From Acidobacteria bacterium RIFCSPLOWO2_02_FULL_65_29 (GTDB taxonomy: Bacteria > Acidobacteriota > Vicinamibacteria > Vicinamibacterales > CAVVIG01), in NCBI GenBank assembly GCA_001767435.1, contig MEKT01000191.1:13111-77110 (forward strand): 64,000 nucleotides of DNA, written 5' to 3'. Numbering within the stretch: position 1 is the stretch's first letter; every line of letters starts with the position of its first letter. Below the pieces are notes generated by a model. It searched no databases. It saw only the letters and a list, made by a program, of their open reading frames with translations, and was not told the origin of the DNA. This document shows positions 4,015 through 63,789 of this stretch, piece after piece. A program made the position numbers and the translations under genes.

Positions 4015-5424
4015 ATGAATTACCGCACCGAACGCGACACGCTGGGCGAGCTGCAGGTGCCCGCCGAGGCGTACTACGGCGTGCAGACCGCGCGGGCCGT
4101 CGAGAACTTCCCCATCAGCGGGCTCACCGCCCCCGCCGATCTCGTCATCGCAACGATCCTTGTCAAGAAGGCCGCCGCGGAGGCCAATGCGGCCCTCGGC
4201 CGGCTGTCGCACGACGTCGCCTCTGCCATCGTCTCGGCGGCCGACGACATTCTCGGCGGCCGGCTGCGCGACCAGTTCGTCGTGGACGTGTACCAGGCGG
4301 GCGCCGGGACCTCGCACAACATGAACGCCAACGAGGTGCTGGCCAACCGCGCGGGCGAGGTGCTGGGCGAGCCGCGAGGCACCTACGCGCGCGTGCATCC
4401 GAACGATCACGTCAACATGAGCCAGTCGACCAACGACGTGTTCCCGACGTCGACTCGCCTGGCACTGCTCCTGGGCGCGGGCGGCCTGGTGCAGGCGGCG
4501 CTCGATTTGACTGCGAGCCTCGAAGAAAAGTCCCGCGCCTTTGCCGGCATCCTCAAGACGGGGCGCACGCACCTGCAGGACGCCGTGCCGATGACGCTCG
4601 GTCAGGAATTCGGCGGCTACGCGGCCTGCCTTCGGCGCGGCGCCGATGACGTGGCGCGGGCCTCAGAACAACTGCTGGAGCTGAACCTCGGCGCAACCGC
4701 CGTGGGCACGGGACTCAACGCCGGCGAAGACTATCGGCGGCTCGCGGTGGACAACCTGCGGCGGTACACGAATCTCGCGGTCAGGCCGGCCGACAATCTT
4801 TTCCGCGTCACCCAGAGCATGGGCGACGTGCTGGCGTACTCGGGCGCGATGCGCAGACTGGCGGTGGAGCTCAACAAGATCGCCAGCGACTTGCGCCTGT
4901 TGAGCATGGGACCGCGCGCCGGTCTCTCCGAGATCTCGCTTCCCGCTGTGCAGCCCGGATCATCGATCATGCCCGGCAAGGTGAACCCCTCCGTGCCCGA
5001 GATGGTCAACCAGGTGTGCTTCCAAGTGATCGGCTGCGACACGACGGTCGCGCTTGCCTGCGATGCGGGCCAGCTCGAGCTCAACGTGATGATGCCCGTG
5101 ATTGCCTGGAACGCCCTGCACGCCTCCTCGATCCTGCGCGAATCCATGAAAGCCCTGCGCGGTCGGACCGTCGAAGGCATCGTCGCCCACGCAGAGCGGG
5201 CGTGCGAGCTGCTCGATAGAAGCACAGCCGTGGCCACCGCGCTCAGTCCCTACATCGGGTATGCCCTGACGGCGGAGGTTGCGAAAGAATCGGTTCGAAC
5301 CGGGAAGTCGATTCGAGAGATCGTTCTCGAGCGTGCTCTGCTGGAGAAGACGCGGCTGGACGAGATTCTGTCGGCCGACGCCATGACGCGTGGGGGGATC
5401 ATGGGCGGGAAGAAGGACGTATGA
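4015..5424 (+). CDS. aspA: Aspartate ammonia-lyase (aspartase/fumarase superfamily)
   Basis: MNYRTERDTLGELQVPAEAYYGVQTARAVENFPIS; VDVYQAGAGTS; LQDAVPMTLGQEF; GSSIMPGKVNP; GKSIREIVLERALL matches AspA better than FumC. Confidence 0.85.
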   Translation: MNYRTERDTLGELQVPAEAYYGVQTARAVENFPISGLTAPADLVIATILVKKAAAEANAALGRLSHDVASAIVSAADDILGGRLRDQFVVDVYQAGAGTSHNMNANEVLANRAGEVLGEPRGTYARVHPNDHVNMSQSTNDVFPTSTRLALLLGAGGLVQAALDLTASLEEKSRAFAGILKTGRTHLQDAVPMTLGQEFGGYAACLRRGADDVARASEQLLELNLGATAVGTGLNAGEDYRRLAVDNLRRYTNLAVRPADNLFRVTQSMGDVLAYSGAMRRLAVELNKIASDLRLLSMGPRAGLSEISLPAVQPGSSIMPGKVNPSVPEMVNQVCFQVIGCDTTVALACDAGQLELNVMMPVIAWNALHASSILRESMKALRGRTVEGIVAHAERACELLDRSTAVATALSPYIGYALTAEVAKESVRTGKSIREIVLERALLEKTRLDEILSADAMTRGGIMGGKKDV

Positions 5425-5521
5425 GTGGGCAGGCGACAGGCTGGGCAGGCTAGCCAGGAGATCGGGCAGGCGGGCCAGACAAGGCGAGCGGGGACGAAGA
5501 GCGCGACGAGAGGAAAGATTC

Positions 5522-6325
5522 GTGACCAGGCATGCGACGTGGGTTCTTGTGTGCGTCTTTGTCGGAGCAGGCATTCCCCTGCCGGCCCCGCCAGCCCTTT
5601 TCGCACTGCCCGCCCTTTTCGCCCTGCCTGCCCTGCCTGCCCTTTCCGCCCTGCCTGCCCTGCCTGCCCTTTCCGCCCTGCCAGCCCTTTCGTCGCAGCA
5701 ATCCCCGAGCGGCCGCCTCTTCCCTCCGCAGGATCTCAGCCTGCTCGAGGCGCCCGATCGCGACGAGTGGCAGAAGCCCGACCTCATCATGGACGAGCTC
5801 CAGATCGCGGACGGGTCGCGTGTGGCCGATCTGGGAGCCGGCGGCGGCTGGTTCACGATCCGGCTCGCGCGGCGCGTGGGGCCGAACGGTCTTGTGTACG
5901 CACAGGACATTCAGCCGCTGATGATCGAAGCCATGAGCCGGCGCGTCGAGCGAGAGGGATTGCGGAACGTCGTGCCCGTGCTGGGAACGGCCACCGATCC
6001 GAAGCTCCCCCAAACCGGGGAGCTCGACGCGGTGCTCATCGTCGGCGCGTTTCACGAGATGGACGATCCGGCGCGGCCCGAGATCATTCTCACATTGCTC
6101 GACTCGGTGGCGCGAGCGCTCAAGCCGCAAGGCCGGCTGGGCATCGTCGACTTCACGCCCGGCGGAGGCGGCCCCGGCCCGGCGGCCGACGAGCGTGTCG
6201 ATCCCGAGACGGTGACCAAGGCAGCGGCCCGAGCCGGGTTCAGGCTGCAGAAACGCGAGACGATCCCGCCTTTCATCTTCCTGCTGGTCTTCGGCAAGAG
6301 CGGCGCGCCGCCGACCGCACGCTGA
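5522..6325 (+). CDS. SAM-dependent methyltransferase with repeat-expanded N-terminal signal region
   Basis: VADLGAGGGWFTIRLARRVGPNGLVYAQD is a class I MTase motif; GTG start with (AL)PALPALSALPALPALSALPAL near the N-terminus. Confidence 0.75.
   Translation: MTRHATWVLVCVFVGAGIPLPAPPALFALPALFALPALPALSALPALPALSALPALSSQQSPSGRLFPPQDLSLLEAPDRDEWQKPDLIMDELQIADGSRVADLGAGGGWFTIRLARRVGPNGLVYAQDIQPLMIEAMSRRVEREGLRNVVPVLGTATDPKLPQTGELDAVLIVGAFHEMDDPARPEIILTLLDSVARALKPQGRLGIVDFTPGGGGPGPAADERVDPETVTKAAARAGFRLQKRETIPPFIFLLVFGKSGAPPTAR
5580..5696 (+). repeat. CCTGCC / CCCTTTCCGCC tandem word array inside coding sequence
   Basis: ccctgcctgccctgcctgccctttccgccctgcctgccctgcctgccctttccgcc. Confidence 0.9.
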
Positions 6326-6341
6326 CACGCGCCCGACTGCC

Positions 6342-7148
6342 ATGCGTTCCGCACTGACCATTGCCGGCAGCGATTCGGGCGGAGGCGCCGGCATTCAGGC
6401 GGATCTCAAGACGTTTGCCGCATTCGGCGTCTACGGTACGAGCGCCGTCGCGGCCATCACCGCGCAGAACACCATGGGCGTCACCGCGGTCATGGCGGTG
6501 TCGGCGGATCTGGTGACCGCGCAGATCGCGGCCGTCGCTTCAGACATCGAGCTGCACGCGACGAAGACCGGCATGCTGGCCACCGCAGCCATTGTCGAAG
6601 CCGTGGCGGCGGCGATCGAAGAGCTGGATCTCCCCAACGTGGTCGTCGACCCTGTCATGGTGGCGAAGAGCGGCGAACGGCTGCTCGACAACGAGGGCAT
6701 TCAGGCGCTGCGCATGGAGCTGCTGCCGAGAGCACTCGTCGTGACGCCGAACATCCCCGAGGCCGAAGTCTTGAGCGGCCTTCGCATCAGCTCACTGGAC
6801 AGCGCGCGCGACGCCGCGCGCAGGATTCAGGAGCTCGGGCCCGCCGCCGTCGTGATCAAGGGCGGGCACGGCACGGGCGACGAAATCATCGACCTGTTGT
6901 TCGACGGCGAGCAGTTTCACGAATATCGAACACCGCGTCTCGCCACGCGCCACACGCACGGGACCGGCTGTACCTTTGCGTCCGCGATTGCCGCGTCGCT
7001 CGCGCACGGCCATCCCCTGACCGAAGCCACCCGCCGCGCCCAAGCCTACGTGGCCGGCGCCATCCGCCACGGCCTGGCGATCGGCCACGGTCATGGGCCG
7101 CTCGATCATTTCTGGCAGACGCGAGCGCGAGAGAGCCCGCCGATGTGA
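6342..7148 (+). CDS. thiD: Hydroxymethylpyrimidine/phosphomethylpyrimidine kinase
   Basis: ALTIAGSDSGGGAGIQADLKTFAAFGVYG...THGTGCTFASAIAA ThiD signatures. Confidence 0.92.
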   Translation: MRSALTIAGSDSGGGAGIQADLKTFAAFGVYGTSAVAAITAQNTMGVTAVMAVSADLVTAQIAAVASDIELHATKTGMLATAAIVEAVAAAIEELDLPNVVVDPVMVAKSGERLLDNEGIQALRMELLPRALVVTPNIPEAEVLSGLRISSLDSARDAARRIQELGPAAVVIKGGHGTGDEIIDLLFDGEQFHEYRTPRLATRHTHGTGCTFASAIAASLAHGHPLTEATRRAQAYVAGAIRHGLAIGHGHGPLDHFWQTRARESPPM

Positions 7149-7195
7149 CAGGCGGTTAAGCTGCCTGGGTGAGAACCCGTTCTATACTGAAGAGG

Positions 7196-7687
7196 ATGAT
7201 TCCGCTTCTGGCGATCGGGCGCGAACCGCTTGTGCTGGCGCTGCTTGTGGCCGCCGTGACCGATCGACAGGGGGATGCAGCCGGCGCCGACGGCGGCGTG
7301 GCGGCGTTTCTGGGCGTGGTCCGCAACCATAACGCCGGCAGAAGCGTCCGATATCTCGAGTACGAAGCCTACGAGCCGCTGGCCGTGCGCTCGTTCGAGC
7401 GGATTGCGGGCGAGGTGGCGGCGCGCTGGCCGGGCGTGCGTCTCGCGCTGCATCACCGGATCGGACGGCTCGAGATCGGCGAAGCCAGCGTCGCGATCGC
7501 CGCCGCGTCGGCCCATCGTGCCGACGCGTTTGCCTCCTGCCGGTACACGATCGAGCGTGTCAAGCAGATCGCGCCGATCTGGAAGCGGGAGTTCTTCGAC
7601 GGCGGCGACGTGTGGATTGAAGGCGCCGCGGCCGACCCAGACGATGAGGTCGCGAGGGCGAAGGCCGAGCGTGCCGCATGCGCGTGA
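7196..7687 (+). CDS. moaE: Molybdopterin synthase catalytic subunit
   Basis: GGVAAFLGVVRNHNAGRSVRYLEYEAYEPLA...HHRIGRLEIGEASVAIAAASAHR...PIWKREFF MoaE motifs. Confidence 0.9.
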   Translation: MIPLLAIGREPLVLALLVAAVTDRQGDAAGADGGVAAFLGVVRNHNAGRSVRYLEYEAYEPLAVRSFERIAGEVAARWPGVRLALHHRIGRLEIGEASVAIAAASAHRADAFASCRYTIERVKQIAPIWKREFFDGGDVWIEGAAADPDDEVARAKAERAACA

Positions 7688-7923
7688 CGGTTCGCCTCTT
7701 CGCTCGGCTTCGAGATATCACCGGAGCGTCCGAGATCGGCCGCGACGTGGCGCCTGGCGCGACCATCGGATCGATCTGGCGGGGCCTGGTCGCGGAGTTT
7801 CCCGATCTCGCCGGGTACGAGCGGTCGATCTCGAGCGCCGTGAACACCGACTACGCGCGGATGGACCATCCGGTCGATGACGGCGACGAGGTGGCGTTTT
7901 TACCACCCGTTTCTGGAGGATAA
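7678..7923 (+). CDS. moaD: MoaD/ThiS family sulfur carrier
   Basis: MRVTVRLFARLRDITGASE...DGDEVAFLPPVSGG, C-terminal GG; overlaps moaE. Confidence 0.9.
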   Translation: MRVTVRLFARLRDITGASEIGRDVAPGATIGSIWRGLVAEFPDLAGYERSISSAVNTDYARMDHPVDDGDEVAFLPPVSGG

Positions 7924-7927
7924 GACG

Positions 7928-8001
7928 ATCAACGCAGAGGCCGCAGCGATCGCAGAGAATCGGAAGTCACATTCTGTGAAGTCTGCGTGCTCTGCGTTGA
8001 T
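7928..8001. repeat. Inverted word repeat ATCAACGCAGAG ... CTCTGCGTTGAT
   Basis: Exact 12-nt arms at 7928-7939 and 7990-8001, with further GCAGAG words between. Confidence 0.9.
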
Positions 8002-8012
8002 GTCGTAGCGTG

Positions 8013-9086
8013 ATGTTTGACAAGCTGTCGGCGACCGAACGCCAATACGACGAGGTGCTCGCGAAGCTCGGCTCGGCCGAGATCCAGAGCGATCCGTCCG
8101 AATACCGCAGGCAGGCCAAGCTCCTCTCGGAGATCGAGCCGCTCGTGGCGCGGTTCCGCGAGTACCAGACCGTCACGCGCGACATCGCGCAGACAGAAGA
8201 GCTCGCCGCCAGCGCCGACGCCGACATGCGCGAGCTGGCCCAGGAGGAGCTCAAGGGGCTCGTGGCCCGGCGCGAGACGCTCGTCGCCGAGATGAAGCAG
8301 CTCCTGGTACCCAGAGATCCCAACGACGAAAAGAACGTCGTCCTCGAAATCCGCGCGGGCGCCGGCGGCGACGAGGCCGCTCTGTTCGGCGCGGAGCTCT
8401 TCCGGATGTACAGCAAGTTCGCCGAGCGCCAGGGCTGGAAGGTCGACGTGATGTCGATGAACGAGACCGGTGTGGGCGGCATCAAGGAAGTCATCGCCAC
8501 GATCGAGGGCCGCGGCGTCTACAGCAAGCTGAAGTACGAGAGCGGCACGCACCGCGTGCAGCGCGTGCCGGCGACCGAAGCCAGCGGCCGCATTCACACC
8601 TCCGCCGCCACCGTCGCCGTGCTCCCGGAAGCCGAGGAGGTCGACGTCCAGATCAACGAAAAGGACCTCCGGGTCGACACCTTCTGCTCGAGCGGGCCCG
8701 GCGGCCAGAGCGTCAACACGACGTACTCCGCCGTCCGCATCACGCACATTCCCACCGGCGTCGTCGTCTCCCAGCAGGATGAAAAATCGCAGATCAAGAA
8801 CCGCGCGAAAGCCATGAAAGTGCTGCGGTCGCGCCTGTACGAAATGGAGCTGCGCAAGCAGCAAGAAGCCATCGCGAAGGATCGGCGCAGCCAGGTGGGC
8901 AGCGGAGACCGATCCGAGAAGATCAGGACCTACAACTTTCGCGACAACCGGATCACCGATCACCGCGTGAACTTCAGCACGCATCAGCTCACCAACGTGC
9001 TGAACGGCGACCTTGGCGAACTGCTCGACCACGTCATCACGTTCTTCCAGTCCGAGAAGCTCAAGGACGCGACCACAGTATCCTGA
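8013..9086 (+). CDS. prfA: Peptide chain release factor 1
   Basis: [55 protein letters not shown] motif. Confidence 0.95.
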
Positions 9087-9092
9087 GGGCTG

Positions 9093-9152
9093 GCATGGCA
9101 GGCGGGCCTGGCAGGGCGGGCGGGGCAGGCAGGCCGGGCACGGCAAAATCCC
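9093..9152 (+). repeat. GGCAGGC-type word array
   Basis: ggctggcatggcaggcgggcctggcagggcgggcggggcaggcaggccgggcacggca. Confidence 0.75.
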
Positions 9153-9187: not shown

Positions 9188-10090
9188 ATGAGCAGCATCC
9201 AGGAACGCGTCGCCGCAGCGCGTCACCGTCTGCGCGAAGCCGGCATTCCCTCCGACGAGGCCGATCTCGACGCGCGCCTCCTCGCGCAGCGCGCCCTCGG
9301 ATGGGATGCGGCGCGGTTGCTCACGCGCGCGAATGAGCAGGAGCCTGCTGGCTTCCTCGACGAGTACGGCACGCTCGTCACCAGGCGCGCCGCGCGGGAG
9401 CCGATGGCGTACGTCCTCGGGCGGCAGGAGTTCTGGGGCCTCGAGTTCGAGGTATCGGCCGCCGTGCTGATTCCGCGGCCCGAAACCGAGCTCATCGTCG
9501 ACGCCGCACTCGAGACGTTCGCGGATCCGATCGCCACGATCGACATCGCCGACATTGGGACGGGCAGCGGATGCCTGGCGGTGACGCTCGCCCACGAACG
9601 CCCGAATGCCCGCGTCGTGGCCAGCGACGTCTCGGGAGCCGCGCTCGGGGTTGCGCAACGGAACGCCGCGCGACACGGTGTCTCCTCGCGGGTTCAATTT
9701 CTCGAGGCGGATCTTCTTGGAGGGACCGCGCAACCTTTCGATCTGATCGTATCGAATCCGCCGTACGTGCCCGAACGCGACCGGGCGACGCTTCAGCCCG
9801 AAGTTCGCGATTACGAGCCGCCGGCGGCCCTCTTCGCTGGAGACGATGGCCTCTCGGTGATCCGGCGGCTGGTGGACGAGGCCGCGCCACGGCTCAAGCC
9901 GAAGGGCTTCGTGATCTTCGAGTTCGGTTTCGGCCAGGCTGACGCCGTGCGGACGTTGGTCGCGCGCGCGCTGGACCTGAGTCTGCTCGAGGTGCGCAAT
10001 GATCTACAAGGCATTCCGAGAGTGGCGATCGCACGGAGAAGTTCACAGTCGACAGTTCAGTTAACAGGACTGTCAACTGTCAACTGTTGA
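9188..10090 (+). CDS. prmC: Peptide chain release factor N5-glutamine methyltransferase
   Basis: DIADIGTGSGCLAVTLAHERPNARVVASD...DLIVSNPPYVPERD; follows prfA. Confidence 0.93.
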   Translation: MSSIQERVAAARHRLREAGIPSDEADLDARLLAQRALGWDAARLLTRANEQEPAGFLDEYGTLVTRRAAREPMAYVLGRQEFWGLEFEVSAAVLIPRPETELIVDAALETFADPIATIDIADIGTGSGCLAVTLAHERPNARVVASDVSGAALGVAQRNAARHGVSSRVQFLEADLLGGTAQPFDLIVSNPPYVPERDRATLQPEVRDYEPPAALFAGDDGLSVIRRLVDEAAPRLKPKGFVIFEFGFGQADAVRTLVARALDLSLLEVRNDLQGIPRVAIARRSSQSTVQLTGLSTVNC

Positions 10091-10101
10091 CTGTAAACTT
10101 C
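10038..10101. repeat. Imperfect inverted repeat built from CAGTTGAC/GTCAACTG words, covering the prmC stop
   Basis: gaagttcacagtcgacagtt (10038-10057) against aactgttgactgtaaacttc (10082-10101): 18/20 complementary. Confidence 0.9.
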
Positions 10102-10106
10102 GGCGC

Positions 10107-10448
10107 ATGAACTGCCTGTTCTGCAAGATCATCAACCGCGAGATTCCGAGCTCCATTGTCTACGAGGACGATCGCCTGCTCGCCTTCAACGACATCAATC
10201 CCCAGGCGCCAACCCACGTGCTCGTGATTCCGAAGAAACACGTCGAGTCGCTGAACGACCTTCAGCCGGGAGACGATGAGCTGATCGGCGAGCTCGTTCG
10301 CCGCGCGGCGGCAATCGCGGGCGAACGCGGCATCGCGGCCGGCGGTTTCCGGACCGTGTTCAACACGAATCGCGATGCGGGACAGACAGTGTTCCACGTC
10401 CACTTGCACCTGCTCGGCGGACGAAACATGGCGTGGCCGCCGGGATGA
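10107..10448 (+). CDS. HIT family (histidine triad) protein
   Basis: MNCLFCKIINREIPSSIVYEDDRLLAFNDINPQAPTHVLVIPKKH...FHVHLHLLGGRNMAWPPG. Confidence 0.93.
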   Translation: MNCLFCKIINREIPSSIVYEDDRLLAFNDINPQAPTHVLVIPKKHVESLNDLQPGDDELIGELVRRAAAIAGERGIAAGGFRTVFNTNRDAGQTVFHVHLHLLGGRNMAWPPG

Positions 10449-10456
10449 GCGTGGAA

Positions 10457-10504
10457 TTTGAGGATTTGAGGATTTGAGGATTTGAGGATTTGAGGATTTG
10501 AGGA
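10457..10504 (+). repeat. Six perfect tandem copies of the 8-mer TTTGAGGA
   Basis: Read directly; period 8. Confidence 0.97.
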
Positions 10505-10526
10505 CTTAGAGAGATTTGACGATTTG

Positions 10527-12146: not shown

Positions 12147-12260
12147 GATCTTTTCGTGCTTTCGTGTTTTCGTGGCCAATGAGTGTCCGTGGGGCTCGAC
12201 AATTCTCAACTCCTCGCCAAATCCTCAACTCTTCAAATCCTCAATTCCTCAAATTCCAGT
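12147..12260 (-). repeat. CACGAA word array followed by TTTGAGGA-like words (minus orientation)
   Basis: cttttcgtgctttcgtgttttcgtggcc ... ccaaatcctcaactcttcaaatcctcaattcctcaaattcc. Confidence 0.85.
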
Positions 12261-13538
12261 GTCTTCCGTGTATGGCCCGGCAACGACGATGGTGGCGCGC
12301 GCCGGGTCAAGGGCTTCCTTCGCCGCCTCGTGCACCTCGTCCAGCGTGACCGCGCCCAGGATTCCCGGGAGCCGGCGGTCGTAGTCCAGGCCGAGGCCGA
12401 AGAACTCCATCGCTTGCAAAAAGTTCGCGATGCCCGCGTTGGCCTCGAGCGCCCGCGGCATCGATCCGACCAGATACTGCTTCATCTCCCGCAATTCCTT
12501 GTCGAAGAGGCCGTCGATTCGCAGCCGCGTGAGCTCGTCGTCGATCGAGCTGATGGCGCGTTCGACGTTGGCCGAGCTGACGCCGGCGCGGATGACGAGC
12601 GGCCCTTCGAGAACGTTCGCGTCGAGCGCGCTCGACACGTGGTACGCCATGCCTTGCCGCTCGCGAATGCTGTCGCCCAGCCGTCCACCAAGCGCGTACT
12701 GGCCGAGCGCGACGTTCATCAGCCAGTAGGCATAGTAGGCAGGGTCGGTCCGGGCAATCGTCGTGAAGCCGTACGCGATCTCTGTTTGCGCCTTGTTCAT
12801 CATCGGGATCACGTGGCGCCGGCGAGCCGCCGATCGCGCCACCGGGGGAAGCGGCACGGGCGCGGGCCTGGCGGCACGCCATCCTCCGAACACGCGGTCG
12901 GCCGCGTCGAGCGCACGGCCCGCGTCGACGTCGCCGACGATCACGGCCGAGAGCTCGCTCGGCGCGAACCGCGCCGCGTGCAAGGCCAGGAGCCGCTCGC
13001 GCGTGAGCCCCTCGACGATCTCGACACTGCCCTTCGTCCGTCGTCCGTACGGATGCTGCTCTCCGTACAGCAGTGCCATCAGGCCCTCGGTGGCGCGCAC
13101 CGCAGGGCTGTCGTCGTCCTGCTTGATAGCGGAGACGACTTCACCCTTGCGCGTGGCCAGCTCGTGTTCGGGCACCGTCGGCGCCATCAGCACGTCGCCG
13201 AGGAGCGCGAGGATGTCCTCGAAATCCTTCGCCAGGCACGTGCACACGACCGAGAACAGGTGGCGTGTAACGTTGATGGTGAGCGAGATGCCGCGGCCGT
13301 CGATTTCCTCGGCAAGGGCGTCGGCGCTGCGGCGGGCGGTGCCCCGATCGATCACACGCGCGAGCAAATACGACGCGCCCGGCGCGTCCGGCGGATCGCA
13401 GATTGATCCCGCGCGCACGGCGAGGTTGAGGGCCACTGCTGGGGTCTTGCGCGTCTCCTTGGCGAGGACGACGACGCCATTGTCGAGCGTCGAGCGGACG
13501 GGTGTGAGCCCGGAACCTTCCTGGGGGGCCGGGGGCAT
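12249..13538 (-). CDS. M16 family peptidase-like protein (apparently non-catalytic partner)
   Basis: MPPAPQEGSGLTPVRSTLDNGVVVLAKETRKTPAVALNLAVRAGS...; start overlaps the stop of the upstream M16 gene; HxxEH not seen. Confidence 0.82.
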   Translation of the reverse strand: MPPAPQEGSGLTPVRSTLDNGVVVLAKETRKTPAVALNLAVRAGSICDPPDAPGASYLLARVIDRGTARRSADALAEEIDGRGISLTINVTRHLFSVVCTCLAKDFEDILALLGDVLMAPTVPEHELATRKGEVVSAIKQDDDSPAVRATEGLMALLYGEQHPYGRRTKGSVEIVEGLTRERLLALHAARFAPSELSAVIVGDVDAGRALDAADRVFGGWRAARPAPVPLPPVARSAARRRHVIPMMNKAQTEIAYGFTTIARTDPAYYAYWLMNVALGQYALGGRLGDSIRERQGMAYHVSSALDANVLEGPLVIRAGVSSANVERAISSIDDELTRLRIDGLFDKELREMKQYLVGSMPRALEANAGIANFLQAMEFFGLGLDYDRRLPGILGAVTLDEVHEAAKEALDPARATIVVAGPYTEDTGI

Positions 13539-14863: not shown

Positions 14864-17815
14864 ATGCCTGAGTGGAAAGACACGGTCAACCTGCCGCGGA
14901 CGGACTTTCCCATGAAGGCGAATCTGCCGACGAGCGAGCCCCAGACGCTCGCGCGGTGGACCGCCATGGACCTCTACGGAAAGATCCGCGAGAGCCGGAA
15001 GGACGCGCCGAAATTCGTCCTGCACGACGGACCGCCGTACGCCAACGGCAACATCCACCTCGGCACGGCCCTCAACAAGATTCTGAAAGACCTCGTCGTG
15101 AAATCTCGATCGATGGCGGGCTTCGACGCGCCGTACGTCGTGGGCTACGACTGCCACGGCCTGCCGATCGAGCTGAAGGTCGACCGCGAGCTCGGCCCCA
15201 AGAAGCGCCAGATGTCGGCGGCCGACTTCTGTCGCGCCTGCCGCGCGTACGCCGAGCGGTTCATCGGGACGATGACGGAACAGTTCCAGCGCCTGGGCAT
15301 TCTCGGAACCTGGGACGATCCGTACTTGACGATGAACTTCAAGTATCAGGCGGCGATCGCGAGAGCCTTCGGCAAGTTCGTCGAGCAGGATCTTGTCTAC
15401 AAGGGCAAGAAGCCCGTGCATTGGTGCATTCACTGCCGCACGGCGCTCGCCGAAGCCGAAGTCGAGTACGAGGATCACGCATCGCCGTCGATCTACGTGG
15501 AGTTCCCGCTCCCGCCTGAACACGCCGCGGTGCTGGCCTCGCGCGTGCCGGCACTGGCCGGCCGCCAGGTCTCGGTCCTCATCTGGACGACGACGCCGTG
15601 GACGATTCCGTCGAATCTGGCGATCGCGTTTCATCCCGAGTTCGACTACGCGGCGTACGAGGTGGACGGGCGCGCGGTGATCGTCGCCGAGGCGCTCGCC
15701 CCTGCCGTCGCGGCGGCGACCGGCCGCGCGTTTGGCGCCCCCGTGGCGCGGATGAAGGGCGAGGTCTTCGAGCACATCCGTTTTCGACACCCGCTCTACG
15801 AGCGCGATTCGGTGGGCGTGCTCGGCGAGTACGTGACGCTCGAGGCCGGCACGGGCGCCGTGCACACGGCGCCGGGCCACGGCGCCGACGACTTCGCCGC
15901 CGGCATGAAGTACGGCCTGGAGATCTACGCGCCGGTCGGGCCGGCGGGCCACTTTCTCGAGACGGTCGAGCTCTTTGCCGGCCAGCGCGTCTTCGACGCG
16001 AACCCGAAGATCGAAGAAGCGCTGCACGCACGCGGCAGGCTCTGGCATCGTCAGTCGTTCGCGCACCAGTACCCGCATTGCTGGCGCTGCCACCACCCGG
16101 TGATCTTCCTGGCCACGAGCCAGTGGTTCATCAGGATGGACGGCGTGCTCGCGGGCGAGGAAAGGGCAGCGGGCGGAGGGCAAAGGGCGGAGGGCGGAGG
16201 GCAAAGGGCAAAGGGCGAAGGGCAAAGGGCAGAGGGCAAGGGGCTGGTAGCTGAGCGCCGAGAGCTGCAAGCCGACAGCGTCCGAACACTCCGCCAGGCT
16301 GCGCTCGATGCGATCGATCACCAGGTGAAGTGGATCCCGGCGTGGGGGCACGACCGTATCTACAACATGGTGGCGAACCGCCCCGACTGGTGCATCTCGC
16401 GGCAGCGCGCGTGGGGCGTCCCGATTCCCGCGCTCGATTGCACAGCGTGCGGCGAGGCGGTGGTGACGCCCGCGATCGTCGAGCAGGCGGCGCACGTGTT
16501 CGAACAATACGGCGCCGACGCCTGGTACGAACGGCCGACCGAAGAGTTCGTGCCGAAGGGCGTGACGTGCCCGACATGCGGCGGGACCGTCTTCGAGCGC
16601 GAGATGAACATCCTCGACGTGTGGTTCGATTCCGGGTCGAGCCACGAGGCGGTGCTCTCGGTGCGTCCCGAGCTGACGTGGCCCGCCGACATGTACCTCG
16701 AGGGCAGCGACCAGCACCGCGGCTGGTTTCAGAGCTCGCTGTTCGTCGGCCTCGGCACGCGCGGCCGCCCGCCGTTCCGCGAAGTGGTGACCCACGGGTT
16801 CCTCATCAACGTCGACGGGACGAAGATGTCCAAGTCGCTCGGGAACGCCATCGAGCCGGGCGACGTCATCAAGGAGAGCGGCGCCGACATCCTGCGGCTT
16901 TGGGTGTCGATGAGCGACTACCGGGAAGAAATCCGCGTCGGCAAGGAAATCCTGGCGCGGGCGGTCGAAGCGTACCGGAAGATTCGGAACACGCTCAGAT
17001 ACCTGCTGGCGAATCTGTACGACTTCGATCCGCGCGCCGATCAGGTCGATCGCGGCCGGCTCGAGGAGGTCGACCGCTACATCCTGGCGCGCTACAGCGA
17101 GGTGTCACGGAAGATCCTGGACGCGTACGAAGAGTACGATTACGGAACCATCTTTCAGACGCTGAACGCGTTCACGACCGTGGATCTGAGCGCGTTCTAC
17201 GCCGACGTCTCGAAGGATCGGGTGTACACTTTCGCCGCCCGCTCGATCGAGCGCCGATCGGCTCAGACGGCGATGTACATCATGGCCGATGGGCTGACGC
17301 GACTGGTCGCGCCTATTCTGTCGTTCACGGCCGACGAGCTCTGGCGGTTTCTGCCTGGCTCGCGCGAGGAATCGGTGCATATCGCCGTCTTCCCAACGCG
17401 GACCGATCTCGACCAGCTGGCCGACCCGGAGGTTCTCGAGCGGTGGAGCCTTTTCACGGCGTTGCGCGAGCGGGTGCTGGCCGAGATCGAGCCGCTGCGC
17501 AAGGACAAGCGGATTGGCAGCTCGCTCCAGGCCAAGGTGGTCCTGTCTGCCGCTGCCCGGGATTTCGAGTTCCTGAAGCAGTACGAGCGCCTCCTGCCGA
17601 TGCTGTTCATTGTCTCGGAGGTTGAGCTGCACGTGGGCCACGCTGGATCAGCGGACGTTCCGGAGTCCGGCAAGCCTGCCATTGCGATTGAGCGCGCCGC
17701 CGGCGTGAAATGCGATCGCTGCTGGCGGTACGTGAAGCATGTGTCAGCCGAGCCGGCCTGGGCGGGCCTGTGCGATCGGTGCCAGCAGGTCCTCGCGGAA
17801 CCCATCCATGGCTGA
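14864..17815 (+). CDS. ileS: Isoleucine--tRNA ligase
   Basis: [52 protein letters not shown]-terminal [10 protein letters not shown]...CDRC zinc site. Confidence 0.96.
16156..16280 (+). repeat. GGGCAAA/GGGCGGA word array inserted in frame within ileS
   Basis: gaaagggcagcgggcggagggcaaagggcggagggcggagggcaaagggcaaagggcgaagggcaaagggcagagggc; encodes [28 protein letters not shown]. Confidence 0.93.
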
Positions 17816-20857: not shown

Positions 20858-21027
20858 CCACGAAAACACGAAGGCACGAAGAAAGCCCCCGGACACTCGG
20901 TGGCCACGAAAACACGAAAGCACGAAAGAAGGCCACCAGAAAAGAGGCCACGAAAGCACGAAGACACGAAGACACGAAGAAGACCACCCGAAGAACCGCC
21001 ACGAAAACACGAGAACACGAACAAAGA
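20858..21027 (+). repeat. CACGAAAACACGAAGGCACGAAG word array
   Basis: Irregular tandem copies of CACGAA(A/G)A/GCACGAAG; spurious ORF TKARRHEDTKKTTRRTATKTREHE. Confidence 0.95.
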
Positions 21028-22751: not shown

Positions 22752-22880
22752 GTGCTTTCGTGCTTTCGTGGCCTATCGTTCGTCTTCTTCGTGACTTCGT
22801 GACTTCGTGACTTCGTGGTCGATCGATCGCTCCGTCCTTTTAACTTCTAAGTTCTAACTTCTAACTTCTAACTTCCTCTA
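22752..22880 (-). repeat. Inverted CACGAA array (tttcgtgctttcgtgg, cttcgtgacttcgtgac) followed by GAAGTTA array (minus sense)
   Basis: tgctttcgtgctttcgtggcc...cttcgtgacttcgtgacttcgtgg...taacttctaagttctaacttctaacttctaacttcc. Confidence 0.93.
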
Positions 22881-25343
22881 CGGTCTCGCCGCAATCGGGC
22901 CTCCCCGCTTCGGCTCTTTCGGCTCCTTGGGATCGGCCTTCACGGGGCGCGCGTCAGACGAGACCGGCTGCAAGGCCAGCGCGAGCACTTCGTCGATGGA
23001 CGACACGAGGTGCACCGTCAGGCCTTTCCGCAATTCGGGCGTCAGGTCCTCGTTGACGTTCTTCTCGTTCTGCTTGGGCAGAATCACTTGGTTGACGCCC
23101 GCGCGCCGCGCGGCCAGCACCTTCTCCTTGACGCCGCCGACGGGCAGGACGCGGCCCGACAGCGTGATCTCGCCCGTCATCGCGATGTCGCCCCGGACCG
23201 GCCGCCCGGTGAGCTCCGACGCCATCGCCGCCGCCATCGTGACGCCCGCCGACGGGCCGTCTTTTGGAATCGCACCCGACGGCACGTGCACGTGGATCTC
23301 GGCGTTCTTGAAGAAATCGGGGTCGATGCCGTACTCCTTTGCGTGCGCGCGCAGCCATGACAGCGCGGCGCGCGTCGACTCCTTCATCACCTCGCCAAGC
23401 TGGCCGGTCAGCGTCAGCGACCCGGCGCCCGCCATGCGGGACGCCTCGATGAACAACACCTCGCCGCCAACCGGCGTCCACGCCAGGCCGATCGCCACGC
23501 CGGGCTCCTTGGTGCGCTCCTCCATTTCCTCCTCGAGGAACCTGGGCGCCCCGAGCATCTGCACGACCACGTCCGGCGTGATCTCGAGTGGGGTCTCGTC
23601 GCCTTCCGCCCGGCGCCGCGCCGCCTTCCGGCAGAGCGCGCCGATTTCCCGCTCGAGGTTCCGCACGCCCGCCTCGCGGGTATATCCGCGAATGACCTGG
23701 CCGATCGCCGCGGGCGTGAACCGGATCGACTCCGGCGTCAGGCCGTGGTTCTTCACCTGTTTCTCGACCAGGTGCTCGGTGGCGATCGCCAGCTTCTCCT
23801 CCTCGGTGTAGCCGGCAAGCTCGAGCACCTCCATCCGGTCTCGCAGCGCCGGCGGAACGGGATCGAGGACGTTGGCCGTGGTGATGAACAGCACCTCGGA
23901 CAAATCGAACGGGACATCAAGATAATGATCGCGAAAGGTGTTGTTCTGCTCCGGGTCCAGCACTTCCAGTAGCGCGGAGGACGGATCGCCGCGAAAGTCG
24001 GCGCCGAGCTTGTCGATCTCGTCGAGGATGAACACCGGGTTCTTCGACTCGGCCCGGCGCAGCCCCTGAACGATCTGGCCCGGCAGCGCGCCAATGTAGG
24101 TGCGCCGGTGGCCGCGGATCTCGGCTTCGTCGCGCATGCCGCCGAGTGACACGCGGACGAACTTTCGACCGAGCGATTCGGCGATCGATCGCGCGAGCGA
24201 GGTCTTCCCCACGCCGGGAGGGCCGACGAAACACAGGATCGGTCCTTTGACGTTCGGGTTCAGCTTGCGCACGGCCAGGTACTCGAGGATACGGTCCTTC
24301 GCCTTTTCGAGCCCCGAGTGATCCGCGTCGAGCACCTGTTTGGTGCGCGGCAGATCGATCACCTCGTCGGTCCGCTTCGCCCAGGGGAGCGCGATCAGCC
24401 AGTCGAGATACGTCCGTGCCACGGTGTACTCGGCGGCGGCCACCGGCATCTTCGACAGGCGGTCCAGCTCGCGGAGCGCTTCCTTCTTCACGCCGTCGGG
24501 CATGCCGGCCGCATCGATTTTTGCGGCCAGCTCCTCGTTTTCCCTCGTCTGGTCGTCGCCTTCGCCGAGCTCCTTCTGAATCGCCTTCATCTGCTCGCGC
24601 AGGAAATATTCGCGCTGGTTCCGGCCGACTTCCGACTGCACTTGCGACTGGATCTTCGAGCCGAGCTCGAGCACCTCGAGCTCCTTGATGAGGATCCGGT
24701 TCAGGTTGTCCATCCGCGCCCGGATGTCCAGCGTCTCGAGCACCTCCTGCTTCACGGCGGTGCTGATGGTCGTGAGGCTCGAGGCGATGAAATCCGCCAG
24801 CCGGCCCGGTTCGGCGATATTGCTGGCGAGCGTCTGGAGATCGTCGGACAGGAGCGGCGACAGCGACACCACCTGCTGGAAGTTCGTCTTGATGTTGCGC
24901 GCCAGGGCGTCGATCTCCAGACGATCGGCGTCGCGAGCGCCTTCCGGTGCGGGACTGACCCGCGCGCGCAGGTAGGGCGCGCTCGCCACGACCGACTCGA
25001 GCGTGAGCCGTGTCAGGCCCTGCACGATCAGGCGCAGGCTGCCGTCGGGCAGCTTGAACATCTTGTGAATGTGCGTCGCGGTGCCCACTGCGTACAGATC
25101 GGCCTGGCCGGGCTCCTCGACGGTCGCGTCGCGCTGCGTGAAGGCCGCGATGAGCTTGCCGTTCGCAATCGCGTCGTCGATCAGGCGGACCGAGCTCTCC
25201 CGCGCGACCGCGAGCGGCATGAACGAGTTGGGAAAGAGCACCGTGTCGCGCAGCGGCAACACCGGCAACTCGGACGGGATCGCGAGCGGGCGATCCCCGA
25301 CCGCCAATTCGTCGGGTTTCTGAGCCTCAGGTTGGTCGATCAT
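22878..25343 (-). CDS. lon: Lon ATP-dependent protease (alternative start 25364)
   Basis: [73 protein letters not shown] catalytic Ser region. Confidence 0.95.
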
Positions 25344-25375
25344 GGCGACCTCATTATTTTTCATGGCACATCGCA

Positions 25376-25420
25376 AATCGCAGATCGCAAATTGAGATGC
25401 GCGATTGCCGATTGTCGACG
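25376..25420. repeat. CGCAAATCGCAGATCGCAAATTG word cluster
   Basis: cgcaaatcgcagatcgcaaattgagatgcgcgattgccgattg in the lon/dksA gap. Confidence 0.7.
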
Positions 25421-27234: not shown

Positions 27235-27259
27235 CGATATATACTTGGTGGCTCGGGAA

Positions 27260-27327
27260 TTTGAGGATTTGAGGATTTGAGGATTTGAGGATTTGGGGAT
27301 TTGGGGATTTGGGGATTTGAGGATTTA
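27260..27327 (+). repeat. TTTGAGGA / TTTGGGGA 8-mer array upstream of rpmB
   Basis: About 8.5 units, three with an A-to-G change; last GAGG lies at SD distance from rpmB ATG. Confidence 0.95.
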
Positions 27328-27521: not shown

Positions 27522-27556
27522 AACCGTTCGACGTTCGACGTTCTCGGAAGCTCGCA

Positions 27557-27943: not shown

Positions 27944-27986
27944 TCACCACAAAGGACACGAAGGACACGTGGCGGATCAGCGCGGA

Positions 27987-34817: not shown

Positions 34818-35420
34818 GTGGAGCCGGTCATACACTCGGAAGAGGCGTGCGTGAACTCAGAGCTCGAGGGCTACCAGGATCAGCTGCTGTCGATCAATCA
34901 AGATGCGCCGGGCATCGTCGCCGGGCTGTCGAACGATCAGTTCAACTGGCGGCCCGGGTCCGACCGGTGGTCGATCGCGGAATGCCTGGGGCACCTGAAC
35001 ATCGCGGCCCGGCTGTTCATGCCGACCTTCGACGAGGCGATCGCTCGAGGACGCAGGCGCGGCATGACCGCGGGCGGCCCGTTCGCATATCCGCTGCTGC
35101 AGCGATCCTTCGTCAGGCTGATGGAGCCCCCGCCGGTCATTCGCGTGCGCACGCCAGGGGCCTTTGCGCCCGTGTACGGGGCGACCTCGGTGACAGTCAT
35201 GACCGATTTCTTCGCCTGGCAGGCCGAGTTTCTGGAGCGGTTGAAGAGCGCCGACGGCCTGGACCTCCGTCGGATACGCGCCCGGTCTCCCGTCCTGCCG
35301 TGGCTGCGGTACGGCCTCGGCATCGCCTTCGCGGCCTACCTGGCGCACCAACGGCGCCATCTCTGGCAGGCACGGCAGGTGAGGTTAGTCGTTGGTCGCT
35401 GGTCGAAGCTGGAACTTTGA
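34818..35420 (+). CDS. DinB superfamily protein (start may be GTG 34851)
   Basis: GLSNDQFNWRPGSDRWSIAECLGHLNIAARLFMPTFDEAI...HQRRHLWQARQV. Confidence 0.8.
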   Translation: MEPVIHSEEACVNSELEGYQDQLLSINQDAPGIVAGLSNDQFNWRPGSDRWSIAECLGHLNIAARLFMPTFDEAIARGRRRGMTAGGPFAYPLLQRSFVRLMEPPPVIRVRTPGAFAPVYGATSVTVMTDFFAWQAEFLERLKSADGLDLRRIRARSPVLPWLRYGLGIAFAAYLAHQRRHLWQARQVRLVVGRWSKLEL

Positions 35421-35527
35421 AGGGTGACGGCGGAGCGCCGAAAAAAAAGGCGGCGGTCATAGCCTCGACCGCCGCCCGATTGAGGACTCGCGACTGACAA
35501 CTATCGACTATCGACTAACGACTAATT
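35384..35527. repeat. TAGTCGT-type words inverted across the DinB/exbD convergent junction
   Basis: gttagtcgttggtcgctggtcg at the DinB 3' end; cgactatcgactaacgactaa at the exbD 3' end. Confidence 0.88.
35441..35476 (-). terminator. Intrinsic terminator for the tonB-exbB-exbD-exbD operon
   Basis: Minus-strand GGCGGCGGTC-gaggctat-GACCGCCGCC-TTTTTTTT; perfect 10-bp stem. Confidence 0.88.
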
Positions 35528-36435: not shown

Positions 36436-36527
36436 AGCGATTTCTCCAGAAAACTACAGGCTCTAGGCTTTAGACTTCGGGCCCTTGCCAAAGCCTAAAG
36501 TCCAAAGCCCAATCCGAGTGCTGTCCC

Positions 36528-41633: not shown

Positions 41634-41668
41634 TAGTCGTTAGTCGTTAGTCGATAGTCGTTAGTCGG
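41634..41668 (+). repeat. Five tandem 7-mers TAGTCG(T/A/G)
   Basis: tagtcgt tagtcgt tagtcga tagtcgt tagtcgg. Confidence 0.95.
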
Positions 41669-49854: not shown

Positions 49855-49926
49855 ACAATTCATTTTCTTCAATCTCTTCAATCTGAAATCCTCTTCAATC
49901 TGAAATCTGAGTTCTGAAATCTGAAG
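49855..49926 (+). repeat. CTTCAATCTGAAATC word array
   Basis: cttcaatctcttcaatctgaaatcctcttcaatctgaaatctgagttctgaaatctgaag. Confidence 0.88.
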
Positions 49927-58132: not shown

Positions 58133-58179
58133 TGGGGTCAGAGTGGGGTCAGAGTGGGGTCAGACACCACTCTGACCCC
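58133..58179. repeat. Three TGGGGTCAGAG 11-mers plus inverted CCACTCTGACCCC
   Basis: tggggtcagagtggggtcagagtggggtcagacaccactctgacccc. Confidence 0.97.
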
Positions 58180-59116: not shown

Positions 59117-59124
59117 TGTTGGCG

Positions 59125-59838
59125 ATGCAGGCGTTAGCCTTCTTGCTCGCCGCGGCTTTAGCAGCCCGCGGTGAAAGTCTGGCTGCATTCGACGGGCGAT
59201 GCATCCCCGCCGGCTGCGTTGCTCCTCGCTCACATACTCCCGGTATGCTCGGTCGTCGCGCCTTGCCGGCGGGGCGCCTCGCCCGTCTCGGTGCGACGCC
59301 AGACTTTCACCACGGGCTGCTCGCCCAGCAGCAACCACCTGTGCCGAAGCCCTTTCCGCAACCCGGGGCGACACAGCCGGTCAAGCCGGCGGCGCCGCCT
59401 GCCAAGCCGTCGCAGCCGCCAACCGCCCAGCCGGCGCCCCCGCCCGGCGCCACGCCGCCCGCCGCTCCGCCGGCCGATGGCGCGCCGACGGAAGCCGCGT
59501 TGGGCGTCCCGATCTACCCCGGCGCGCAGTTCCTGAGGGCGTACGACGCCGGGCGCGGGCAGCGGTTCTATCTGTTCGGCACAACCGCGTCATTCGTCGA
59601 TCTCGTCAGCTACTATCGCGGACGACTGAAGCAGCGTGGCGAGGTGGTCTTCGAAACGCCGGCGACGCACGAGTTCCTGGTGGGCCGCTTCCGCGAGGAG
59701 ACGATGGCGTTTCCGCCAGGGGTGACGATCAAGGATTTCCAGTCCGAAGTGTCGCAGGGCTATCCCAACCCGAAGGTCGGGGCCCAGCCGGCGCGGTTTC
59801 CGACGGTGATTCAGATTGTCGCTGTCACGGAACGCTGA
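59125..59838 (+). CDS. Secreted Pro-rich hypothetical protein carrying an in-frame palindromic insertion
   Basis: MQALAFLLAAAL...; Pro/Ala linker then LGVPIYPGAQFLRAYDAGRGQRFYLFGTTASFVDLVSYYRGRLKQRGEVVFETPATHEFLVGRF. Confidence 0.75.
   Translation: MQALAFLLAAALAARGESLAAFDGRCIPAGCVAPRSHTPGMLGRRALPAGRLARLGATPDFHHGLLAQQQPPVPKPFPQPGATQPVKPAAPPAKPSQPPTAQPAPPPGATPPAAPPADGAPTEAALGVPIYPGAQFLRAYDAGRGQRFYLFGTTASFVDLVSYYRGRLKQRGEVVFETPATHEFLVGRFREETMAFPPGVTIKDFQSEVSQGYPNPKVGAQPARFPTVIQIVAVTER
59160..59321. repeat. 162-bp nested palindrome inside coding sequence (MITE/REP-like)
   Basis: Outer arms 59160-59183/59298-59321 23/24; inner GACGGGCG/CGCCCGTC, CCCCGCCGGC/GCCGGCGGGG and CATAC/GTATG share nearly one axis (about 59240). 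Confidence 0.93.
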
Positions 59839-59846
59839 AACCTGAA

Positions 59847-60078
59847 ATTGAGGATTTGAGGATTTGAGGATTTGAGGATTTGAGGATTTGAGGATTTGAG
59901 GATTTGAGGATTTGAGGATCTGAGAATTTGGCGTCAGGAGCCTGTTGCCCTGAGCGCAGCGTGACGAGATCCCGACACGAAATCCTCAAATTCGCGGTTC
60001 CAAATCCTCAAGTTCTCAAATCCTCAAGTTCTCAAATCCTCAAATCCTCAAATCCTCAAATCCTCAAATCCTCAAATT
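59847..60078. repeat. Giant inverted 8-mer array: (TTTGAGGA)9 ... (TCCTCAAA)n
   Basis: Left arm 59847-59918 about 9 units; right arm 59980-60078 about 10 units, some TCCTCAAG/TTCTCAAA. Confidence 0.97.
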
Positions 60079-60082
60079 CAGA

Positions 60083-61785
<1,703 letters not shown>

Positions 61786-61809
61786 TGAGACTATAACCTG
61801 AATCGCGAA

Positions 61810-61841
61810 TTTGAGGATTTGAGGATTTGAGGATTTGAGGA
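61810..61841 (+). repeat. Four TTTGAGGA units with degenerate continuation to about 61900
   Basis: tttgaggatttgaggatttgaggatttgagga then atttggcgagaatttgaagagttgaggatc. Confidence 0.95.
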
Positions 61842-61905
61842 TTTGGCGAGAATTTGAAGAGTTGAGGATCTTGGCGAAGATTTTTCAGAATTTGAGAAGT
61901 TGATG

Positions 61906-63066
61906 TCATGCGACTTTCCGCAAGATGAAGCATTTCAGGTAGTACGTCTCGGGCACGCCCAGTAGCACCGGGTGATCGCGCCCCTGCATCCGTTTTTCGA
62001 CGACCGTGACATGGACGCCCGCATCGATCGACGCGTCGTACACGATCTCGGCAAACGCCGCCTCGTGCACGTGGTACGAACAGCTGCAGGTGACGAGCGT
62101 CCCGCCGGGATTGAGGAGCTTCAGCGCACGGAGATTGATTTCCTTGTAGCCGGCGGTGGCCTTGGGTACGGCGGTCTTGCTCTTGGCGAACGCCGGCGGG
62201 TCGAGGACGATGGTGTCGAACCGTTCCTTCAACCGCTCGAGTCCTCTGAGCTCGTCGAACACGTTGCCGACGCGCGCGTCGATGGTGACACCGTTCCGCT
62301 CGGCGTTCTGTCGCAGGCGGCCGACGGCATCCGCGGAGATCTCGATGGCGATGGTTTCCTGGCAATGCCGTGCCAGCTTGAGCGCGAAGCCGCCGTTGTA
62401 GCTGAAGCAGTCGAGCAGCCGGCCCCGGGCGTACGCCGCCGCCGCTTCACGGTTCTCACGCTGGTCGAGAAAGAGACCCGTCTTCTGGCCGCGCCGGGGA
62501 TCGACGCGGTACTCGATCCCGCTTTCGACGACGGTCACCTCCTCCGGAACCTCTCCCGACAGCACGTCGACACGCTGTTCCAGACCCTCGAGCTGGCGGG
62601 ACCGGGGATCGTTTCGGCCGAGGATGCCCTTCGGCGCCAAGAGATCGTTCAGCGTCGCCACGATGAAAGGCGTCAGCCGATCCATTCCCTGGCAGAGCGC
62701 CTGGAGGACGAGATAATCTCCGTACCGGTCGACGATGAGCGAGGGGAGGAGATCGGCTTCGCCGTGGACCAGACGGTAGGCCGACGCGTCGATGGTCAGC
62801 GCCTGCCGGAAGCCGATTGCCGCCTCCAGCCGCCTTCTGAGCAACCCCTCGTCGGCGACGGCCTCGCCGTCTGTGAGCATCCGCAGGACGATTTGCGAGC
62901 GGTCGCTGTACAGCGCCTGTCCGAGGACGTGACCGCGCGGCCCGCGGACCGAGACGCGGTCGCCGCCCGTCGCGCGCACGTCTGCGATGTCACTGCGATA
63001 GATCCAGGGATGGCCGCTCGCAACGCGTTCGGCTCCTCGCGCGGAAACGATGACGGTCGGAAACAT
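61906..63066 (-). CDS. PUA-domain class I 23S rRNA cytosine methyltransferase (RlmI/RlmK-like)
   Basis: VSARGAERVASGHPWIYRSDIADV; KTGLFLDQRENR; LLDCFSYNGGFAL; FDTIVLDPPAFAKSKTAV. Confidence 0.9.
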   Translation of the reverse strand: MFPTVIVSARGAERVASGHPWIYRSDIADVRATGGDRVSVRGPRGHVLGQALYSDRSQIVLRMLTDGEAVADEGLLRRRLEAAIGFRQALTIDASAYRLVHGEADLLPSLIVDRYGDYLVLQALCQGMDRLTPFIVATLNDLLAPKGILGRNDPRSRQLEGLEQRVDVLSGEVPEEVTVVESGIEYRVDPRRGQKTGLFLDQRENREAAAAYARGRLLDCFSYNGGFALKLARHCQETIAIEISADAVGRLRQNAERNGVTIDARVGNVFDELRGLERLKERFDTIVLDPPAFAKSKTAVPKATAGYKEINLRALKLLNPGGTLVTCSCSYHVHEAAFAEIVYDASIDAGVHVTVVEKRMQGRDHPVLLGVPETYYLKCFILRKVA

Positions 63067-63076
63067 GAGTGCCGTG

Positions 63077-63203
63077 CTGCGTTCTCCGTGCGTCGTGCAA
63101 CGTTCTCTCGTTCGGCGTTCGAAGTGCTGTGTTCCCGTCGCGCCCGGCTCCGAACGACGAGCGCCGAACGACGAACGAACAGCACGTCGCACGGAGAACG
63201 CAG
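63077..63203. repeat. Long palindrome in the rlmI/rpiB divergent spacer
   Basis: CTGCGTTCTCCGTGCGTCGTGC (63077-63098) against GCACGTCGCACGGAGAACGCAG (63182-63203): 21/22 complementary; inner CGTTCGGCGTTCG-type words also inverted. Confidence 0.92.
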
Positions 63204-63241
63204 AACTTCGAACCGCAAGGAACATAGTACAATTGTCCGCT

Positions 63242-63685
63242 GTGCGAATCGCGATCGGCGCCGATCACGCCGGTTTTCTCCTCAAAGAGCATCTGAAAGG
63301 CACGCTCGAGCGGCTCGGCCACGCAGTTGCCGACCACGGGACGACGAGTGAGGAGTCCACCGACTATCCCCCGATCTGCTTCGCCGTGGCGCGGGCCGTC
63401 GTCGAGGGCCGTGCCGATCGCGGCATCGTCGTCGGCGGCAGCGGGCAGGGCGAGCAAATGGCCGCCAACAAGATCGCGGGCGCGCGCGCGGCGCTGTGCC
63501 ACGACCTCTTGACGGCGCGGCTGTCGCGCCAACACAACGATGCCAACGTGCTCTCGATGGGCGGACGCATCGTCGCCTTCGGACTCGCGGACGAGATTGT
63601 CGCCCTATGGCTGGAGACCCCGTTCGACGGCGGGCGCCATCAGCGGCGCATCGATCAGATTACGGCCGCTGAGCGGCGGAACTAG
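63242..63685 (+). CDS. rpiB: Ribose-5-phosphate isomerase B
   Basis: VRIAIGADHAGFLLKEHLKGTLERLGHAVADHGT...GIVVGGSGQGEQMAANKIAGARAALCHD...SRQHNDANVLSMGGRI. Confidence 0.92.
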   Translation: MRIAIGADHAGFLLKEHLKGTLERLGHAVADHGTTSEESTDYPPICFAVARAVVEGRADRGIVVGGSGQGEQMAANKIAGARAALCHDLLTARLSRQHNDANVLSMGGRIVAFGLADEIVALWLETPFDGGRHQRRIDQITAAERRN

Positions 63686-63789
63686 AGCGCTCTTGTGCCG
63701 GCCTGTGGTGCAGGGCTTCAGTCCTGCCTACGACGGCGCGCGTGCAGGTCTGAAGACACCGTTTGGAAAACTGCTGTAGAACACAATTC

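Follow-up and report, generated by a model that had tools for sequence, protein, structure and literature searches.

The window analysed in this study is a 64,000-nucleotide stretch of the draft genome of Acidobacteria bacterium RIFCSPLOWO2_02_FULL_65_29 (C191:13111-77110; genome of 5.5 Mb, 239 contigs, 97% complete). Between and partly inside its genes, which include prmC, ileS, lon, relA/spoT and thiC, the window contained tandem arrays of short words, and we suggest, tentatively, that such arrays were dispersed within the genome by insertion. The arrays were confirmed by Tandem Repeats Finder (TRF) and by direct reading of the sequence (Table 1), and nearly all of those listed in an initial annotation, which was made from the sequence alone, were present at the positions given there. 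That annotation had assigned periods of about 7 to 11 bp; the arrays were real, but the dominant periods were 7 and 8, and its GGCAGGC (5424-5520 and 9093-9152) and GCAGAG (7928-8001) arrays were weak repeats of a 9-bp type. The description of the arrays as gap fillers held for most of them, whereas some were partly coding (the hairpin at the prmC end, the 5' TAGTCG arm and the ileS array, a strong one that the annotation had not listed).

Coding DNA and gaps were defined by gene calls from a simple codon-usage model built for the analysis. Arrays were defined by TRF (at least 36, period 6-12), and dinucleotide shuffles of the gaps served as the control. In 456 kb, 147 arrays were found in 106 of the 266 gaps, far exceeding the 2-5 arrays of the shuffles, and periods of 7 (83 arrays) and 8 (37 arrays) dominated. 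The larger sample, 839 kb out of 5.5 Mb, on which the own-genome statistics are based, contained 243 arrays of period 7 or 8 in 172 of 465 gaps. The array rate per kb in coding DNA was 12-fold below that in gaps. Head-to-tail 7-bp units in intergenic DNA were above chance and were dispersed over many loci of one genome.

Table 1. Word arrays and inverted pairs of words in the window, with strand and gene context.
Feature	Position	Strand	Context
ACAGTYN (5' arm)/NRACTGT (3' arm) hairpin, CAGTTGAC	10035..10101		overlaps the 3' end of prmC (9188-10090) and forms its last residues
TTTGAGGA array	10456..10526	+	directly 3' of the stop codon of gene 10107-10448
CACGAANN array, minus-strand reading	12152..12174	-	
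TTTGAGGA-family array	12201..12254	-	reads outward from the 3' end of gene 12249-13538
AAAGGGC/AGGGCAR array, 84 bp (12 x 7)	16161..16244	+	inside ileS (14864-17815); encodes 29 residues
four CACGAANN blocks, 51-bp supra-repeat	20859..21021	+	directly 3' of a stop codon
two CACGAANN blocks	22752..22817	-	
AGAAGTT array	22837..22875	-	directly 3' of the stop codon of lon (22878-25364, minus)
GCAAATC array	25366..25392		
TTTGAGGA array	27259..27326	+	
CGTTCGA array	27525..27543		
short CACGAAGGA array	27948..27969	+	between convergent genes; relA/spoT stop codon 17 nt away
TAGTCGN (5')/NCGACTA (3') inverted pair	35384..35525		5' arm overlaps the end of an open reading frame; GC-rich hairpin between arms
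GGCTTTA/TAAAGCC inverted pair	36460..36512		
TAGTCGN array	41634..41667	+	
TCTTCAATC/ATCTGAA composite array	49866..49925		
(TTTGAGGA)n, 70-bp spacer, (TCCTCAAA)n: long inverted pair	59848..60077		between convergent genes
TTTGAGGA array	61809..61845	+	upstream of the thiC TPP riboswitch
CGAACGA/GTTCGNC inverted pair	63077..63178		

The long inverted pair between convergent genes was found to fold into a near-perfect stem (folding z = -22). The thiamine pyrophosphate (TPP) riboswitch (61687-61785, minus; Rfam RF00059, 72 bits) lies upstream of thiC (60083-61696). The TGGGGTCAGAG 11-mer array at 58133-58164 is of another kind than the word arrays and seems to be a separate element; GGGGTCTGACCCC-type sequences were found in further gaps of the host genome. 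Palindromes of the AGTGCAGGTCTTYAGACCTGC type, resembling repetitive extragenic palindromic (REP) sequences, were present at 3951-4014 and 63690-63780 and in other host gaps, and are distinct from the word arrays. The host genome also encodes many Oar-like outer-membrane proteins.

About 14 word families were found to recur across the host genome: TTTGAGGA, CACGAANN, AATYGGGT, ACAGTYN, TAGTCGN, AGAAGTN, AGGGCAR, AGTTCAG, TCAGCTN, AATTNAG, ATTGCAGA, GGGAYTC, GGGGCTA and CCCTTCGA. TTTGAGGATTTGAGGA alone was present at 344 sites genome-wide, whereas its reversed control gave 0 and same-family relatives gave 0-10; the three-unit pattern of ACAGTYN was found at 251 host sites, at 47 in one relative and at no more than 5 in the others. 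Two arrays shared their word in 43% of cases within one gap and in 5.8% across gaps. The vocabulary is related: 42 distinct 7-mers were joined by 54 links of a single mismatch, whereas randomised word sets with the same composition gave 16 (maximum 25). When units were assigned by the TRF consensus, with no core imposed, each unit of 7-8 nt consisted of a constrained core of about 5-6 nt and 1-2 free positions, variation being confined to one or two positions (ACAGT-YN, CACGAA-NN, TCAGCT-N, TAGTCG-N). In the gaps of loci L146 and L149, the ATTGCAGA arrays have a common longer tail, GGAAGGATCTCACGG, and the AGAAGTT arrays a common tail, AGAAGGAC, which hints that in some families the ends of the element are fixed.

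The claim that inverted partners are frequent was borne out: 111 of 228 arrays (49%) had a significant inverted partner in the same gap, against about 8 expected. The word (w) was followed by its reverse complement, rc(w), rather than the reverse, in a ratio of 58:1 in the host and 9:0 in relatives, and the same order was found for TTTGAGGA pairs of other phyla, mainly Bacteroidota (14:0). Single host arrays adjoining gene 3' ends had w reading away from the gene (77:18). In other phyla TTTGAGGA likewise read away from the gene, both within 60 nt of 3' ends (26:5) and near 5' ends (19:4), and the polarity rule is centred on the gap, not on transcription. In loci L002-L079 (557 kb, mostly Bacteroidota, identified by matches to three TTTGAGGA units), 163 octamer and 82 heptamer arrays of other words were present, so the multi-word style is not confined to Acidobacteriota. 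The outer edges of the ACAGTYN inverted pairs were constant. Of common loops or flanks, which would mark a transposed unit, only a single loop shared by two ACAGTYN hairpins was found. The free dinucleotides of the two ACAGTYN arms were no better matched than those of shuffled partners (0.172 vs. 0.212), and in codirectional gaps G.U mismatches did not significantly exceed A.C mismatches in the arms (37:29). Selection of RNA pairs and hairpin copying are therefore both unsupported, and we rejected RNA-hairpin selection on these results.

Arrays were present in 50% of convergent, 33% of codirectional and 20% of divergent gaps, and this order was the same in relatives. In codirectional gaps the arrays cluster behind stop codons, starting at a median of 11.5 nt past the stop and ending 34.5 nt before the next start. 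A supply of stop codons in all frames was rejected as an explanation, as by inspection only some words have stops in the outgoing reading. Conserved operons have been entered too: the trpG-trpD gap, which holds an array, is 72 bp in the host vs. 0-18 bp in relatives, and that of an opp-type permease pair is 177 bp vs. 0-9 bp; further arrays lie between prephenate dehydrogenase and DAHP synthase and between mannose-1-phosphate guanylyltransferase and phosphomannomutase. Arrays of intergenic words were also found in frame within genes. The ileS array lies inside an insertion of about 47 residues (between residues 424 and 472 relative to solved IleRS structures, which lack it), and its word AGGGCAR occurs in frame in three other host genes.

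Comparison of orthologous gaps showed that word replacement is real, since sister genera carried another word or an empty gap about 100 bp shorter. The gap upstream of phosphomannomutase was compared across 24 genomes of the family; it contained ACAGTTG in the host and GCACCNA, TGATCCC, AGCCCTC, TCAGCTA, ATTGCTA, AGCCACC, AGCCATC and others elsewhere, and was array-free and short in several genomes. Even between congeners at about 85% nucleotide identity, the word or the presence of an array differed. Among 17 pairs of arrays in orthologous gaps, none had the identical word and three differed by one base. In 52 conserved gene pairs, the host gap was longer by a median of 102 bp when the host alone had an array and by 0 when neither had one. 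A gap was more likely to contain an array when its orthologue also had one (odds ratio 15).

We favour, at a probability of roughly 0.45, the reading that these are dispersed short arrays of insertional origin. They would form a multi-word system resembling short tandemly repeated repetitive (STRR) sequences and REP elements with their bacterial interspersed mosaic elements (BIMEs), lacking the REP-associated tyrosine transposase (RAYT), copied within the genome and tolerated behind stop codons. Units or arrays may be copied from site to site by ectopic copying, and copied words may overwrite older ones in a form of concerted evolution. Arrays would survive at the positions where an insertion does the least damage, immediately 3' of stop codons, and local slippage may lengthen some of them (TTTGAGGA). 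The inserted unit was probably an inverted pair, single arrays being halves or decayed pairs, and such a unit would give the polarity rule. Dispersal fits the excess over shuffles, the sharing of words, the relatedness of the distinct 7-mers, the differing words at orthologous gaps, the gap gains of about 100 bp, the arrays in operons and coding DNA, the proximity to stop codons and the polarity, as well as the lack of extra resemblance between neighbouring units in words D, E, G and M and the restriction of variation to 1-2 positions.

Several points weigh against this reading. The compared relatives are too distant for base-by-base alignment of gaps, so copying was not seen directly, and the analysis found neither an enzyme nor an intermediate of the copying. 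Loops and flanks of the inverted pairs are mostly non-homologous between sites, where homology would be expected of a simply transposed unit. The co-occurrence of arrays in orthologous gaps was dominated by one site, without which the odds ratio falls to 4.9 (p = 0.03). The constrained cores could instead reflect selection for the binding of a factor, and the core together with the shared polarity is what dispersal explains least well; a core-recognising factor or an inverted-pair intermediate would account for both. We consider it rather unlikely that short degenerate words are written or copied into gaps by a widespread, undescribed machinery, with the same gap-centred polarity in Acidobacteriota and Bacteroidota, word sets replaced over genus-level time and sites partly persisting.

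It is also unlikely that the arrays are selected 3'-end elements (terminators, insulators, Rho-loading sites or protection of mRNA 3' ends), in which the words would matter little beyond skew and periodicity. The placement behind stop codons, the convergent excess, the long stems and the partly conserved sites agree with such a role, and words read outward from gene 3' ends were G>C in a ratio of 95:40 in the host and 37:13 in same-family relatives, array-free gaps being about even. As a universal rule this skew failed in the relative G029 (25:22). Arrays inside the trpGD and opp permease operons and in ileS do not suit 3'-end elements, and the operon-internal positions argue against an intrinsic bidirectional terminator. 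The lack of covariation between arms, the unclear G.U count and the short gaps that array-poor relatives retain between the same gene pairs also stand against selection. Rho was found in every genome searched, which would permit Rho loading, but array-rich and array-poor genomes both have it and it is not discriminating; the host, like nearly all relatives searched, has two Rho genes (RNA-binding domain; C101:93291 and C216:10273). The rut sites of Rho-dependent terminators are unstructured C>G RNA with a C every 11-13 nt (PMC6407284), whereas the C spacing in the arrays is 7-8 nt.

Replication slippage, which would make and lengthen neutral 7-8-mers tolerated in gaps as ordinary long simple-sequence repeats (SSRs), is a doubtful alternative. 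For prokaryotic long SSRs it has been proposed that polymerase slippage favours a length of 7-8 nt, and according to work cited in PMC4679880 and PMC4692102 most prokaryotic genomes have more long SSRs of period 7 than of any other class. The excess in non-coding DNA agrees with slippage, and units of word A (TTTGAGGA) clearly resembled their neighbours more closely than units sampled from the whole genome. For words D, E, G and M neighbours showed no such extra resemblance; since the local excess was clear in TTTGAGGA alone, plain slippage explains one family at most. Slippage does not account for one word recurring in dozens or even hundreds of gaps, for variation at fixed positions only, for the fixed polarity or for gains of a whole 100 bp or so.

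Equally doubtful are classical non-autonomous transposable palindromes, of the REP/REPIN type (REPINs being paired REP sequences) or miniature inverted-repeat transposable elements (MITEs), with a cognate transposase for each word family. The inverted pairs of fixed polarity, the constant outer edges of ACAGTYN, the genome-specific vocabularies and a genomic distribution resembling that of REPs (PMC3733652) favour them, but the Y1/RAYT transposase (PF01797) had no match in the host genome, and a RAYT engine was rejected on that ground; it was found in some relatives, both array-rich and array-poor. The loops were not conserved, the number of units varied, and inspection of the word arrays revealed neither a constant GTAG or CGTC tag nor a conserved single palindrome as in REP/REPIN.

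A reiterative, telomerase-like template-copying enzyme that extends 3' ends at breaks by a short templated word, the two joined ends giving (w)n-(rc w)n of fixed polarity with free positions specific to the template, is very improbable. It would suit the polarity, which in several phyla points into the gap from either side, the genome-specific words, the independence of units from their neighbours and the misincorporation-like free positions. The many words per genome and the long, unrelated arm spacers do not suit such an enzyme. A reverse-transcriptase engine was rejected, as the RVT_1 domain had no match in five array-rich relatives (G026, G016, G010, G049 and G029) and a single one in the host, in the reverse transcriptase gene at C152:719-1342 (140 bits, in a 554-codon frame). 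An assembly artefact, conceivable for a draft in 239 contigs, can practically be discarded, since a one-contig relative of 7,480,314 bp contained 95 arrays in 216 gaps (1-4 in shuffles) built from a vocabulary of its own that includes AACGCCG, ACCTGAG and ACCCGGT, and isolates carry the words too.

The initial annotation had interpreted the arrays as a process that seeds or amplifies words in gaps. Its view that no single mobile repeat has spread here was supported, and word replacement and the absence of an artefact were confirmed. Its claim of a different word in each gap is contradicted by the recurring families. None of its proposed engines was supported, slippage failing as a general one, template-switch hairpin copying lacking covariation in the ACAGTYN arms, and an element-encoded polymerase of the reverse-transcriptase type lacking RVT_1 in the array-rich relatives.

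Short tandem words are usually taken as slippage noise, but here more than a third of all gaps of at least 20 bp contain them. Their orientation rule is common to several phyla, sites are partly kept while the sequence changes, and operons and an essential enzyme gene have been entered. The origin of bacterial intergenic repeats is thus directly testable in cultured relatives, and the arrays also affect how genes are called and terminators predicted in a soil phylum that has received little study.

The initial statement that no named element class is comparable was too strong, since intergenic heptamer arrays are known. The STRRs or long SSRs of cyanobacteria (Calothrix, Nostoc) are likewise dispersed intergenic tandem heptamers with several words per genome and a patchy phylogenetic distribution; the arrays studied here differ in their roughly 14 families including octamers, frequent inverted partners of fixed polarity, word replacement and units of core plus free positions. 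The TAACTGA repeats of Beggiatoaceae, Cyanobacteria and Bacteroidetes, whose mechanism is not known, are also heptamer arrays in gaps with one word in distant phyla, but there is one word per genome, in Beggiatoa mostly just before start codons (PMC4679880), whereas here many words lie behind stop codons and are paired. The GGGAATC of Xanthomonas and GGGGATT of Nostoc lie close to the open reading frame on their 5' side, at a distance of about 28 nt, and, as here, differ in length and sequence between relatives at common sites; they are single G-quadruplex-forming words (PMC4692102), whereas here GGG within the unit was found in words C, G, L and M only and not in A, B, D, E, F, J and K. A survey of prokaryotic satellites also reports families of heptamers, (GATAGRA)n of Chloroflexus among them (PMC6749651). 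REP/BIME elements with RAYT are short inverted repeats of convergent and codirectional gaps, also inside operons (PMC3733652); the present system differs in the host's lack of a RAYT, in arms made of tandem words and in loops that are not conserved. A search confined to open-access literature yielded no account of multi-word arrays from Acidobacteriota. Internal sequences are conserved in MITEs, whereas those of nearly all inverted pairs here are unrelated, and clustered regularly interspaced short palindromic repeats (CRISPR) have repeats of 21-40 bp with unique spacers of similar length, in contrast to the spacerless 7-8 bp units found here. The palindromic elements of Rickettsia, like the arrays, lie in intergenic DNA as well as in frame within protein-coding genes, but they are palindromic families, unlike tandem word arrays. 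New in comparison with these known repeats are the large set of words in one genome, the inverted pairs of fixed polarity, the replacement of words at orthologous gaps and the units of core plus free positions.

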